From Burkholderiales bacterium RIFCSPHIGHO2_01_FULL_63_240 (GTDB lineage: Bacteria > Pseudomonadota > Gammaproteobacteria > Burkholderiales > Burkholderiaceae_C): DNA of 64,000 nucleotides. The first letter of the stretch is position 1. Each line of letters begins with the position of its first letter. Both the position numbers and the translations under genes were made by a program. Under the pieces are notes generated by a model, which worked only from the letters and a program-made list of their open reading frames with translations, was not told the origin of the DNA and ran no database searches. Of the stretch, positions 5,329-11,451 are shown in pieces. Location of the stretch: positions 62,001 to 126,000 of the forward strand of contig MERU01000004.1 in NCBI GenBank assembly GCA_001770725.1, in the 5' to 3' direction.

Positions 5329-5877
5329 TTATTTCTTCTTCTTGGGGCCCAGCACCATGATCATCTGGCGCCCTTCGAGTTTCGGCATGTTTTCGACCAG
5401 CGAGCAATCCTGCAGGTCATCACGCACGCGTTCCAGCAGGCGCATGCCCAGGTCCTGGTGGGTGATTTCACGACCGCGGAAGCGCAGCGTGACCTTGCCC
5501 TTGTCGCCGTCTTCCAGGAAGCGGCGCAGGTTGCGCAGCTTGATCTGGTAGTCGCCTTCGTCGGTGCCCGGGCGGAACTTGACTTCCTTGACCTCGATGA
5601 CCTTCTGCTTGAGCTTGGCGTCGTGGGCCTTTTTCTGCTCCTGGTACTTGAACTTGCCGTAGTCCATCAGGCGGCAGACGGGGGGATCAGCCGTGGCGGA
5701 GATCTCGACCAGGTCCACATCGTGCTCAGCCGACAGTCGCAGGGCTTCCTGGATGCTGACGACGCCGAGGGGCTCGTTCTCCGGTCCGTTCAGGCGGACT
5801 TCGGGTGCAGTGATTTCGCGGTTCAGCCGGTGCTTGCGCTCGTCGTTGCGCGTGCGGCGGTCAAAGAAGTTAGCGAT
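5329..5877 (-). CDS. infC: Translation initiation factor IF-3, AUC start
   Basis: IF-3 binds the 30S subunit, keeps subunits apart and checks start-codon pairing. The 182-residue product has the IF3 N-domain ([44 protein letters not shown]) and the C-domain ending [19 protein letters not shown]. The nearest in-frame ATG (5985) would add 36 residues unlike any IF-3. The start that fits the family is AUC at 5877 ([10 protein letters not shown]), with AAGGAA six bases upstream. A rare AUU or AUC start underlies IF-3 autoregulation in E. coli and seems conserved here. A promoter at 6195-6223 would give a leader of about 310 nt. thrS, normally just upstream, is displaced by a sensor-kinase gene. 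Confidence 0.95.
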
Positions 5878-6194
5878 GTCGGTTTCCTTCGGGCCCGGCG
5901 CTGAAATCGCTCGGACCAATGGTCTGTGAACACGCGCCCGGTGATCAGTGACCGGCTGTCCAGACTGCATGAACAAGCTCGGCACGCATCAGACCCGATC
6001 GGCGATGTCTGGGTCGAGCTTCGAAGGAGAAGTCTTCATCGACATCGCGCCGGGGTTCTGTTGCCCCGGGCGCGCAGGAAGGACAGGATGGCACCGTTTG
6101 GCAACACCGTTGGCAACCATGGACTTGAAGGCACGCCCAAAGGAAAACCACGGTCATGAACACACGGCTGCTAAGCCTGACCTTTGCGCGCGAA

Positions 6195-6223
6195 AGTTTA
6201 CACGCTCCCGGCTCGTTGCGCAA
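6195..6223 (-). promoter_or_regulatory. Sigma-70-type promoter for infC
   Basis: On the minus strand TTGCGC and TAAACT are separated by exactly 17 bases, with TG directly before the -10. Transcription would start near 6188, leaving a ~310 nt leader before infC. It lies in the 454-base gene-free stretch 5878-6331 between infC and the divergent sensor kinase. I see no other clear element in that stretch. The read is by eye. Confidence 0.5.
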
Positions 6224-6331
6224 ACCCAACGCCCCCTCGGTCCCGTTCCGATCACCCTGGTTGGGTGCCCCGTGGCAGACTCCGACCATGGCTTCCGCGA
6301 TGTCCCGCCCCCCCATCCGCCCCCATCGCCC

Positions 6332-9247
6332 ATGTCCTTGACCCGCCGCTGGCGCCGGATCCTGCCGAGCATGTTGGCTGCGAGCCTGTTGCTCGGCGCC
6401 GGCACGCTTGCGGCCCAAGACGCGCTTTCCCCGGCCAGCGCACCCGCCGGCATGAAGGTGCTGCGCGTCGTCAGCGACGAGAACTTCCCTCCCTACACCT
6501 ATCGCAACAGCGATGGCGGTCCCGAAGGCCTGCTCATCGACCGTTGGCGCCTGTGGTCCCGCAAGACCGGCGTGCCGGTCGAGTTCAACCTGCGCAACTG
6601 GTCGCAGGCCCAGCAGGCCCTGCTCGCCGGCGAAGCCGATGTCATCGACCTGATCTACCGCACACCTTCGCGCGAAGCCAAATACGACTTTTCCAGGCCG
6701 TATGCCGACATGCCCGTGGGCATCTACAGCCATGCCGACATCCAGGGCATCCACAACGCGGCCACGCTCAAGGGCTTTCTCATCGGCGCGCAGGACGGCG
6801 ATGCCTGCATCGAGCAACTGCAGGAAGCCGGCATCCGCACGATCGCCACTTACCCCAATTACGAACAGCTCATCCGCGCCGCCCAGCGCCAGGAGGTCAA
6901 GGTCTTCTGCCTCGACGAAGGTCCTGCGCGCTTTTACCTCTACAAGCTCGGCGTGGACACCGACTTCAAGCAATCGTTCGTGCTCTACACCGGTCAGGCT
7001 CACCGCGCCGTCAAGGAGGGGCAAACCGCTGTGCTGGACTTCGTCGAGCAAGGCATGCGAGCCATCACCGAGGGTGAAGAGCAGGCGCTGCGCGACAAGT
7101 GGCTCGGCGCCCCCAGCGAACCACCCCATGTGCCCCGCGAAGTGTGGTGGGCGGCGGGGGCCGTGGTGGCTGGCGCCGGGCTGTTGCTGCTGTGGAACAT
7201 GCAGTTGCGCCGTCGGGTCGGGACCCGCACCGCCGCCCTCCAGGGCGCGCTCAAGGCCCTGAGGCAGGCGCACCAGGACACCGAGGTGGCTCGCGCCGAT
7301 CTGGCCGCCACCCTGGATGCCATCCCGGACTGGTTGATCGAATTCGATGACGCGGGGCGCGTTGTCAATGCCTTCGCCGGCCGGGAAGGCAGCGCAATCG
7401 AGGCAGACACCGCACGCCTGATCGGACAGCCTCCCGCCGCCTTCCTGCCCGAGGCGGCGGCCGACATCGTCCTGGAGTCGATCGACACCGCACGCCGCGA
7501 GGGGCGCGACCTGGGCCGCAGCATCTGCCTGGATGTGTCCTCGGGCCAGCGCTGGCTTGAGCTTTCCAGCACGCGCAAGCTGCACGGACAGCAATTGCAT
7601 GTGCTCATGCTCGCCCGAGACATCACCCAACGGCATCAGGCCGAGGCCGACTCGGCCAAGGCCCGGCTGGCCCAGGCCGCAGCGGAGCGGGACAAGCTCT
7701 TCAAGGTGCTCTATGAAATGGCCCCGGTCGCCATGGCCTTCCAGCGCGGCGACCAGGTGGTGTCCGTCAACCAGCGCTACATGAGCCAGCTGGGCCTGAC
7801 CGCCGAAGACATCCGCCACCCAGACCAATGGTTCCAGCGCGCCTACCCCGACCCCGCTTACCGGGACTGGGTCATCCAGCGCTGGCAGCAGGACATCGAC
7901 CAGGCCCGCCATGGCGATGGCACCGTCCCGGCGCGCGAATACCACGTCGTGACCGGGCATGGTCACACGCTGGACGTGCTGATCGGCGGGCAACTGCTGG
8001 ACGACGGCCTGCTCATCACCCTGCAGGACATCACGCCGCTGAAGCAGGCCAAGGAGGCCGCCGAGGCCGCGAACGAGGCCAAGAGCGCCTTCCTGGCGAC
8101 CATGAGCCACGAAATACGCACCCCCTTGAACGCCATCATCGGGCTGACCACCCTGCTGCTGCGCGGCGACCTGCTGGACCCATCGCGTGTGCGCGATCAC
8201 CTGCTCAAGATCGAGGGCGCAGGCCAGTTGCTGCTGGGCACCCTCAACGACATCCTGGACTTCTCCAAGATCGAGGCCGGCAAGCTGGAAATCGAGCGCC
8301 AGCCTTTCGAGCCGCGCACGCTGCTGCGCCAGCTGGCCTGGACCCTCGAAGACCAGGCCCGAGCCAAGGGCCTGACACTGTCGACCCACGCCAGCGCCGA
8401 CGTGCCCGAGCAAATGGTGGGCGACCCCATGCGACTGGGGCAGGTGCTGCTGAACCTTGGCGGCAACGCGGTGAAGTTCACCGAAGCCGGCGGCATCGAA
8501 ATCCGGTTGAGCGCGACCCAGGGAGCGCGCGGCACCCCCGTGCTGCGCGCAGAGGTGCGGGACTCAGGCATCGGCATCGACGCCGATGCGCTGACACGCC
8601 TGTTCACCCCCTTCCAGCAGGCCGACAACTCGACCACCCGGCGCTTTGGCGGCACCGGGCTGGGCCTGGCCATCAGCCGCCGCATCGTCGAGCTCATGGG
8701 CGGGCGCATTGGCGTGGAGAGCAGGCCTGGTCAGGGCTCCACGTTCTGGATGGAGCTGCCAATGACCGAGGAAGACACCCCCGCCAGGCAGGAGCCTGCA
8801 ACGGGCGAGGCGCACACCACCCCGATGCTCGCGAACCTGCCCGCGGGCCTGCAGGTGCTGCTGGTGGAGGACAACGACCTCAACCGCGACCTGGCCTGCG
8901 AGCTGCTGAAACTGCACGGTCTGACCGCGCACACGGCCGCCAACGGCCGCGAAGCCGTCGACGTGGCCGCACGGTCCGATCTGACGCTCGACCTGATCCT
9001 CATGGACATGCAGATGCCGGAGATGGACGGGCTGGAAGCCACGCGCTTGCTGCGCCGCATGCCCCACCGCCAAGCCGTGCCGATCATTGCGATGACGGCC
9101 AACGCATCGGTGGACGACCGCCAGCGCTGCATCGACGCAGGCATGAACGACCACCTGCCCAAGCCTTTCGAGCTCACCCGCCTGACGCAGACGCTGCAAC
9201 GCTGGCTGGCACCGCGCGCCGACCAGGGCGGCGGGCCAGCAGCCTGA
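6332..9247 (+). CDS. Hybrid sensor histidine kinase (SBP3-TM-PAS-PAS-HisKA-HATPase-REC)
   Basis: This 971-residue membrane sensor kinase starts at ATG 6332, the first start giving a clean signal peptide (cleavage near TLAAQDA, residue ~29). A periplasmic family-3 solute-binding domain spans ~40-265 ([12 protein letters not shown]). A membrane helix follows at ~271-290, then two PAS domains (~324 and ~454). The HisKA domain holds H593 in [12 protein letters not shown], the ATPase domain runs ~695-810, and a C-terminal receiver starts at ~841 with D892 in [11 protein letters not shown]. The layout resembles EvgS/BvgS sensors that bind a small solute, but the final HPt domain is absent. No cognate response regulator is adjacent. 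It is divergent from infC, convergent with thrS (12 bp apart), and breaks the usual thrS-infC pairing. Confidence 0.93.
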
Positions 9248-9259
9248 TCGGCGGCCTGA

Positions 9260-11179
9260 TCAGCGGCGCTCGTCCGCCGCCTGGTGGATGAGCGCGGTCA
9301 GTGCCGACAGCTCCATGACACCCAGGTCCTGGTTGCCACGGGCGCGCACGGCCACCTTGCCGGCTTCCTTTTCCTTGTCGCCCAGCACAATGAAGTAAGG
9401 CACCTTCTGCAGCGCGTGCTCGCGGATCTTGTAGGTGATCTTCTCGTTGCGGGTGTCGAGCTTGGTGCGGATGCCGGCCTTGGTGAGCGCCGCGGCCACA
9501 TCGCGTGCGTAGTCAGCCTGCGCGTCGGTGATGTTGAGCACCACGGCCTGCACCGGCGACAGCCACACCGGCAAGGCGCCAGCGTGCTGCTCGATGAGGA
9601 TGCCGATGAAGCGCTCAAGCGAGCCAAGGATGGCGCGATGCAGCATCACGGGGTGCTTGCGGTCGCTGGCCTCGGTCACGTACTCGGCGCCCAGGCGCTC
9701 TGGCATCGAGAAGTCGACCTGGATGGTGCCGCACTGCCAGTGGCGTCCCAGCGCGTCTTTCAGCGTGTACTCGATCTTCGGGCCGTAGAAGGCGCCATCA
9801 CCCGGGGCGATGGTGAACTCGCTGTTGGTGGCCTTGAGGCTTTCCATCAGCGCGTTCTCGGCCTTGTCCCACACCTCGTCGGAGCCGATGCGCTTTTCAG
9901 GGCGCGTGGCCACCTTGTAGATGATGTCGGTGAAGCCGAAGTCGGCGTAGACCTTCTGCAGCAGCGCCGTGAAGTCCACGCACTCCTGCAGGATCTGGTC
10001 TTCGGTGCAGAAGACGTGGCCGTCGTCCTGCGTGAAGCCTCGCACACGCATGATGCCGTGCAAGCCGCCGGTGGGCTCGTTGCGGTGGCACTGGCCGAAC
10101 TCGCCGTAGCGCACAGGCAGGTCGCGATAGCTCTTGATGCCCTGGTTGAAGATCAGGATGTGGCCGGGGCAGTTCATCGGCTTGAGCGCGTAGTCGCGCT
10201 TTTCCGACTCGGTGGTGAACATGTTCTCGCGGTACTTGTCCCAGTGGCCGGTCTTCTCCCACAGCGTCTTGTCGATGATCTGCGGGCCCTTGACTTCCTG
10301 GTAGCCGTTGTCGCGGTAGACCTGGCGCATGTACTGCTCCACGGCCTGCCACACCGTCCAGCCCTTGGGGTGCCAGAACACCACGCCTGGCGCGTGCTCG
10401 TCGATGTGGAACAGGTCGAGCTCGCGCCCCAGCTTGCGGTGGTCGCGCTTCTCGGCTTCTTCCAGGCGGGTCAGGTACAGCTGCAGGTCTTCCTTGCTCG
10501 TCCAGGCCGTGCCGTAGACGCGCTGGAGCTGCTCGTTTCGGTGGTCGCCGCGCCAGTAGGCGCCAGCCACCTTCATCAGCTTGAAGTGCTTGAGCTTGCC
10601 GGTGCTGGGCACGTGCGGTCCGCGGCACAGGTCGGTGAAGGCGCCTTCGCTGTAGAGCGACACGTCCTGGTCGGCCGGGATGCTCTCGATGATCTCGGCC
10701 TTGTAGTGTTCGCCCAGGCTCTTGAAGTAGGCCACGGCCTCATCGCGTGGCAGCACCTTGCGCTCGACCTTCTCGTCCTTCTTGGCCAGCTCGGCCATCT
10801 TCTTTTCGATGGCGGCCAGGTCTTCGGGCGTGAAGGGGCGCTTGTAGGCGAAGTCGTAATAGAAGCCGTCTTCGATGGTCGGGCCGATGGTGACCTGCGC
10901 CTCGGGGAACAACTCCTTGACCGCGTAGGCCAGCAAGTGGGCGGTGGAGTGGCGGATGACGTCCAGACCGTCGGCGTCCTTCTCGGTGACGATGGCCAGT
11001 TGCGTGTCGGCCTCGATGCGGTAGGACGTGTCGACCAGGCGAGCGGCATCACCCTGCCCCACGCGGCCGGCCAGCGCGGCCTTGGCCAGGCCCGTGCCGA
11101 TGGAGGCCGCCACTTCGGCCACGGTCACCGGTTGCGCAAATTCACGCTTGGAGCCATCGGGCAGTTGAATCGAAATCAT
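9260..11179 (-). CDS. thrS: Threonine--tRNA ligase
   Basis: This class II synthetase charges tRNA-Thr and is 639 residues long, the normal size. Domains in order are an N-terminal TGS domain ([14 protein letters not shown]), an editing domain ([17 protein letters not shown] and a later CRGPHVP segment), the class II core (MNCPGH, motif 2 FRNEP-like [12 protein letters not shown], and [17 protein letters not shown]) and a C-terminal anticodon-binding domain. The ATG at 11179 has GAGGAA upstream. The ~260 nt leader holds a threonine-rich leader peptide, an antiterminator and a terminator, which point to attenuation by threonyl-tRNA supply. In E. coli thrS is instead autoregulated at translation, so this is a different mechanism. 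Confidence 0.98.
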
Positions 11180-11248: not shown

Positions 11249-11275
11249 AAAAAAGCGCGGTGGCTGCCGCGCTTT
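11249..11275 (-). terminator. Intrinsic terminator (attenuator) in the thrS leader
   Basis: On the minus strand a 9-bp stem (AAAGCGCGG / CCGCGCTTT) with loop CAGCCA is followed by a U-run. It lies 70 nt before the thrS ATG and 46 nt after the leader-peptide stop. It is separate from the aceA terminator, so its position inside the thrS leader implies conditional termination. Confidence 0.85.
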
Positions 11276-11319
11276 CTGGTTTGTAGGAGCAAACAGGTTT
11301 GCGAAAGCAGCGGCCAGCC
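11262..11319 (-). promoter_or_regulatory. Antiterminator fold of the thrS leader
   Basis: The RNA segment GGCUGGCCGCUGCUUU (11319 to 11304) can pair with AAAGCGCGGCAGCC (11275 to 11262). This forms 14 base pairs with two single-base bulges. The second segment contains the whole 5' arm of the terminator, so the two folds exclude each other. The first segment begins two bases after the leader-peptide stop codon. A ribosome resting on that stop would cover it and favour termination; a ribosome stalled upstream on Thr codons would leave it free. Confidence 0.75.
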
Positions 11320-11321
11320 GA

Positions 11322-11369
11322 CTAGACCTCGGTCGAGGTGAAAGTGGAGGTCGAAGTTCGCGGTGTCAT
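11322..11369 (-). CDS. Threonine-rich leader peptide of thrS
   Basis: This 15-codon ORF encodes [15 protein letters not shown] and ends in TAG. Six of the 15 codons are Thr (ACA, ACT, ACC, ACT, ACC, ACC), far above chance. An AAAGG site lies 11 bases before the ATG, a slightly long spacing. A short hairpin (ACCTC/GAGGT) falls at its end and could act as the pausing structure. The ORF is followed by an antiterminator and then a terminator, ahead of thrS. The arrangement matches amino-acid attenuators such as thrL, but placed before the synthetase gene. It would let thrS read through when charged tRNA-Thr is scarce. Confidence 0.82.
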
Positions 11370-11445
11370 AACCGTGTGTGCCTTTCTACGTTCCTTACGA
11401 TTTGCCAGGTCGATGTGCACGCATCAGGCGCGCAACAGATGCCCG

Positions 11446-11451
11446 ATTGTA
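11446..11451 (-). promoter_or_regulatory. Probable -10 element of the thrS leader promoter
   Basis: TACAAT on the minus strand matches the sigma-70 -10 at five of six bases and would start a transcript near 11439, about 70 nt before the leader peptide. The -35 is poor (TGCCGT at 17 bp) and overlaps the aceA terminator. The 356-base stretch 11180-11535 between thrS and aceA therefore holds the aceA terminator, this promoter and the attenuator. Confidence 0.45.

Follow-up and report, generated by a model that had tools for sequence, protein, structure and literature searches.

Ribosome-mediated attenuators that work through a leader peptide are known from enterobacteria, where trpL, hisL, the thrL leader of thrABC and the pheM leader of pheST belong to this type. 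The locus described here shares their general plan, namely a short ORF that is rich in the regulatory codon and has its stop codon beside the 5′ arm of an antiterminator, and an antiterminator and a terminator that are mutually exclusive, but it differs from them in its target (thrS), in its unrelated sequence and in an unusually invariant ORF start. Indeed, the threonine leader of E. coli controls biosynthesis (thrABC) and not thrS, the gene for threonyl-tRNA synthetase (ThrRS), whose textbook modes of control are autoregulation by ThrRS in E. coli and T-boxes in Firmicutes. The E. coli operator and the T-boxes have the same target as the present leader and likewise match ThrRS to need, but they are protein- or tRNA-binding RNAs and operate without a leader peptide. 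Tandem T-boxes on thrS have been reported in Bacillota (PMC12452182).

Leader ORFs before aminoacyl-tRNA synthetase genes have also been put forward in other groups. The uORFC-8-2 motif upstream of cysS in Rhodobacterales, for which ribosome-mediated attenuation was proposed (PMC8632094), likewise consists of a leader ORF with tandem cognate codons in front of a synthetase gene, but its codons are Cys and not Thr, it occurs in alphaproteobacteria, and its sequence and structure are different. In Streptomyces several aminoacyl-tRNA synthetase leader peptides are on record, including thrL before thrS in S. lividans (PMC8079986). This is again a Thr-codon leader peptide proposed 5′ of thrS, but the peptide, MKRVRPFLETTPGFVPAR, has two Thr only, is leaderless, lacks a clear intrinsic terminator and is unrelated in sequence.

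The window analysed here is a stretch of 64,000 nucleotides from the Burkholderiales bacterium RIFCSPHIGHO2_01_FULL_63_240, and its thrS gene (9260..11179, minus strand) encodes a protein of 639 aa carrying TGS, tRNA_SAD, tRNA-synt_2b and HGTP_anticodon (Pfam), that is, all four expected domains. On the same strand, 190 nt 5′ of thrS, lies a leader ORF of 15 codons plus stop (11322..11369, with the ATG at 11369 and the TAG at 11324-11322; supported by relatives), which reads ATG ACA CCG CGA ACT TCG ACC TCC ACT TTC ACC TCG ACC GAG GTC TAG, so that 6 of its 15 codons are Thr (ACA, ACT, ACC, ACT, ACC, ACC). It is preceded by a Shine-Dalgarno-like AGAAAGG (11381..11387, minus strand), and in many relatives GAGAAAGGCA-N4-GGTT or a similar sequence is found 5′ of the ORF. 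Comparison with relatives delimits an 18-nt core, GGTTATGACACCGCGAAC (11356..11373, minus strand), which spans the start codon and the first codons and is the putative region 1 of the attenuator. A small hairpin, ACCTC-GACC-GAGGT (11326..11339, minus strand; sequences and folds), sits within the end of the ORF and is retained in most of the window's genus. Upstream, the leader adjoins the isocitrate lyase gene, which ends with a terminator-like hairpin of its own (GGCACC-TTCG-GGTGCC-GTTTTT, ~11486-11465, from the sequence). A consensus scanner found no full sigma-70 promoter at the leader; judged from the letters alone, a -10-like TACAAT (11446..11451, minus strand) is likely to be the -10 element of a putative leader promoter, in which case the attenuated RNA would be roughly 190 nt long.

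The remaining parts follow in order on the minus strand. Region 2, the 5′ arm of the antiterminator (GGCTGGCCGCTGCTTTC, 11303..11319), starts 2 bases (TC) past the leader ORF stop and folds with region 3 (GAAAGCGCGGCAGCC, 11262..11276), which is at once the 3′ arm of the antiterminator and the 5′ arm of the terminator. Their pairing comprises 4+4+6 = 14 bp with single-base bulges; from the post-stop segment to the terminator 5′ arm the fold reaches -22.7 kcal/mol (z -3.1 against dinucleotide shuffles), and the whole leader folds at z -3.5. The intrinsic terminator, AAAGCGCGG-CAGCCA-CCGCGCTTTTTT, has a 9-bp stem and a U6 tract (11249..11275), and 70 nt separate the end of this terminator (AAAGCGCGGCAGCCACCGCGCTTTTTT) from the thrS ATG at 11179. 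An earlier note on this DNA had described the minus-strand ORF with its six Thr codons, had proposed a 14-bp antiterminator competing with an intrinsic terminator 70 nt before thrS, and had held that all parts of an attenuator are present and correctly spaced; sequence and folds bear out this description in every detail.

Nothing was found in favour of a chance origin, with a Thr-rich ORF lying beside a fortuitous hairpin. A scan for look-alike units (an ORF of 8-25 codons with >=4 Thr and >=25% Thr, and a terminator <=110 nt past the stop) covered the window and 80 thrS loci (590 kb): the one match in the window is the thrS leader ORF itself, and no such unit was found outside the thrS leader in the 80 loci. 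The core GGTTATGACACCGCGAAC is a single copy in the window's genome, where no second use of it was found. With one mismatch allowed, 53 of the 399 genomes from the order carry it, each in one copy, against a single match in 399 for the reversed control pattern, and 49 of 50 inspected matches (the window's included), from 8 GTDB families, lie upstream of thrS. The exception (L144) is a one-mismatch match, apparently inside a coding region, in a 3-kb locus with no thrS. In a class-wide sample the only genomes with the core were the two that belong to the family of the window, and it was absent from the 138 genomes outside that family. Together with the frame-specific Thr codons and the conserved pairing described below, this thrS linkage across the order and the lack of look-alikes refute a chance arrangement, which can hardly be given any credence at all given its conservation across families.

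The alignment of related thrS upstream regions, which the earlier note had named as a check, reveals conservation of the leader peptide itself. Among 109 thrS-anchored upstream regions the core is exact in 61 and present as a near copy in 12 (73 together), and 7 further leaders have diverged but keep an R-T-T or similar motif. Frame and Thr codons have outlasted this divergence in, for example, MFKRTTTTRISR from Vogesella (Neisseriales type), MFFPPARTTTRNFRPMSR from Achromobacter and MLDRTTSGNIAG from a bacterium of the Alcaligenaceae. Across 119 leaders, the share of Thr past MTPRT (residues 6 and beyond) is 39% in the window's genus and 17.5% elsewhere, compared with 0.9-4.5% in the other two frames, so that the enrichment is confined to the frame of the leader ORF. 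All four ACN codons are used for leader Thr, and in Ralstonia (L040, L041) the start codon has moved upstream (ATG ATT CAG GCA CCG CGA ACT ACA ACC) without loss of the frame or of the Thr codons. The frame-specific Thr, the varied ACN codons and the shifted Ralstonia start argue for an ORF that is translated and for Thr as the amino acid that is sensed.

The leader is not indispensable, since one member of the genus has it cut by a stop codon, another is without it, and in some families only the two Thr codons of MTPRT are left (e.g. MTPRTFLLKR, MTPRTRSLPR), with which Thr would be sensed weakly. The leader is broken or missing in 2 of 30 members of the window's genus: in L100 a CGA has become TGA, giving MTP-stop, and in L111 the ORF start is gone; both retain the terminator. 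Some deeper lineages have also lost the leader. Limnohabitans-type and related loci (L013, L020, L022, L031, L028) have a terminator-like GC hairpin and a T run a short way upstream of thrS without a leader ORF.

The competing hairpins are conserved as well. Of 119 leaders, 118 carry a strong terminator. Among 86 leaders kept after deduplication, the pairing of the post-stop segment with the 5′ arm of the terminator surpasses that of dinucleotide shuffles (mean z -1.45, p=2e-12), and the segment of a given species pairs with its own terminator arm better than the segments of other species (p=4e-5), although the leaders are related and both p values thus overstate independence. Control segments taken from the same leaders (the ORF, the middle part that links region 2 to the terminator, and the sequence upstream of the ORF) had no pairing effect with the terminator arm. 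The self-versus-other test serves as an alignment-free stand-in for co-variation, and was called for by the turnover of region 2 from genus to genus: regions 2 and 3 pair as GCCGCGGCU with AGCGCGGC in Roseateles, as UGCUGCGC with GCGCGGCA in L126, and as UCGAGG with CCUCGA in Burkholderia. Inside the window's genus the stems are nearly invariant. On the post-stop alignment RNAalifold recovered the terminator only, with 1 compensated pair; compensated pairs are few because the stems of the genus hardly change and MAFFT fails to align region 2 across genera, and the near-constant sequence of the terminator stem keeps formal covariation there low. Thus both kinds of conservation whose absence would have refuted the proposal of the earlier note, that of the Thr codons and that of the competing pairings in the face of sequence change, are found.

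These observations also bear on whether the unit could be a stand-alone small RNA or small protein gene that precedes thrS by coincidence. A terminated RNA of approximately 190 nt would arise from it, and leader RNAs can act in trans. Every confirmed case, however, lies directly upstream of thrS, a pairing that competes with the terminator has no role in a small RNA, and the peptide varies freely in length and in its C-terminus from leader to leader, so that we consider this explanation very improbable.

With the ribosome treated as a mask in an equilibrium fold model (15-nt downstream footprint), a thermodynamic switch appears at the ribosome positions expected of an attenuator. The modelled probability of the terminator in the window is 0.00-0.17 with the ribosome at Thr codons (about 0.01-0.04 from Thr 2 to 11, and 0.17 at Thr13), 0.95 with the ribosome at the stop codon and 0.50 without a ribosome; footprints of 9 to 18 nt give the same pattern, except for values of 0.68 at Thr13 with 18 nt and of 0.68 at the stop with 9 nt. 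Across the genus the modelled switching is graded, with means over 28 members of 0.59 (Thr codons), 0.96 (stop codon) and 0.89 (no ribosome), and some members have little equilibrium difference. Several relatives have a terminator that exceeds the antiterminator in equilibrium stability, so that the switch there would have to be kinetic; equilibrium folding was dropped as sole criterion for these relatives. Members that switch weakly would rely on the order of events during transcription, because region 3 becomes available to region 2 before region 4 has been made.

Taken with the conserved Thr codons and the conserved competing pairings, the modelled switch supports the reading of the earlier note, and we hold it to be highly probable that the leader controls thrS by ribosome-mediated transcription attenuation, with the charging of tRNA-Thr as the signal that is sensed. 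In the proposed mechanism, a ribosome would translate the Thr-rich ORF as RNA polymerase moves through the leader. When Thr-tRNA is ample, the ribosome would arrive at the stop codon and mask the start of region 2, and with region 2 covered, region 3 would pair with region 4 and transcription would end ~70 nt before thrS. When Thr-tRNA is scarce, the ribosome would stall at a Thr codon and leave region 2 free; region 2 would then capture region 3, no terminator would form, and thrS would be transcribed. The leader thus very probably lets the cell raise ThrRS output when threonine-loaded tRNA is short.

The invariant core refines the reading of the earlier note: beyond the conservation of Thr codons, the opening ~14 nt of the ORF are under constraint at the nucleotide level. 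Within the core, conservation is as strong at wobble positions as at the others (2 substitutions in 3 wobble sites versus 9 in 6 first- and second-position sites). Thr sensing alone does not require such wobble conservation, which is only partly explained.

Conservation of the 18-nt core at the nucleotide level, third codon positions included, is what might be expected if ThrRS bound a tRNA-like element in the leader, as it does at E. coli thrS, or if tRNA-Thr bound it directly as in a T-box, with the terminator as the output. Yet in the window and in six relatives the leader matched neither a T-box like those of Bacillota thrS nor any other Rfam family, the core has no notable resemblance or complementarity to the three tRNA-Thr species of the genome, whether as mimic or as complement, and the in-frame enrichment of Thr would be left unexplained. 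Sensing by protein or tRNA binding is accordingly rated as improbable.

A second function of the core on top of attenuation, such as control of translation start, a synchronising pause or a trans-acting partner, is a more serious alternative, but still an unlikely one. The core is invariant across the 8 families and keeps the rare codons ACA (6 of 126 Thr codons) and CGA (8 of 149 Arg codons, both counted in three window genes). Outside the genus it pairs with the post-stop segment (region 1 with region 2) better than shuffles do (p=3e-7), and the Shine-Dalgarno region is predicted to be less accessible with the native than with a shuffled post-stop segment (p=3e-4); inside the genus the 1:2 pairing exceeds shuffles for the -4..+8 part only (p=6e-5), and neither comparison revealed co-variation. 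Such 1:2 pairing may explain some of the core's conservation, and a self-sequestering 1:2 stem and a strong initiation site could cover most of the pattern without any new partner. Only tentatively, then, can the core (GGUUAUGACACCGCGAAC) be viewed as a second sensor or control site through which two signals are integrated, in most relatives for a thrS-infC-rpmI operon; as such a site it would gate translation of the leader ORF via the post-stop pairing, or be bound by a trans-acting partner.

In four loci (L113, L110, L006, L019) the Shine-Dalgarno region of the leader can pair (~8-13 bp) with a pyrimidine-rich stretch ahead of the terminator, which might conceal the Shine-Dalgarno sequence when the leader is untranslated. 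Outside the genus this pairing reaches z -0.52 (p=1e-3; self versus cross-species p=0.01), which is suggestive; as it is absent in the window's genus, a long-range interaction of this kind is not claimed.

A hybrid sensor kinase gene (5948-9247, plus strand; domains SBP_bac_3, PAS, HisKA, HATPase and receiver) separates thrS from infC (about 5695-5877, minus strand) in the window and two near relatives, and as it lies on the opposite strand the attenuator in the window faces thrS alone. In the other genus members tested thrS and infC are adjacent, infC stands immediately 3′ of thrS in the loci listed, and about 70 of the 75 relatives whose sequence extends far enough downstream have rpmI (L35 motif) <=1.5 kb past thrS. 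On the other side, a tRNA-Val-like gene (anticodon GAC by eye) stands directly 5′ of the thrS leader in Cupriavidus, Burkholderia and Neisseriales (L061, L066, L067, L069, L070, L074, L075 and others), an arrangement that suggests co-transcription with the leader. In some Rhodocyclales-type loci only the tRNA, a hairpin and thrS are left. A thrS start site mapped in Cupriavidus metallidurans is given under locus Rmet_R0015, an RNA gene by its tag (PMC9045368), and would agree with a tRNA-Val gene directly upstream of the leader in Cupriavidus.

The earlier note had considered a leader-peptide attenuator on thrS to be little described in betaproteobacteria; no description of a betaproteobacterial thrS leader peptide was found in the open-access papers searched, and Rfam has no family for it. 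For B. cenocepacia, 82 attenuated or processed short 5′UTRs have been tabulated, and thrS could be among them (PMC5688073). What is new is the thrS leader, which is widely conserved; leader-peptide attenuation of aminoacyl-tRNA synthetase genes is already known. The leader would make a new RNA family for annotation. Beside autoregulation by ThrRS and T-boxes it would represent a third solution for thrS, kept across Burkholderiales, in which control by charged tRNA is reached differently, and since infC and rpmI follow thrS in nearly all relatives examined, it would tie threonine supply to the expression of a translation factor and a ribosomal protein.
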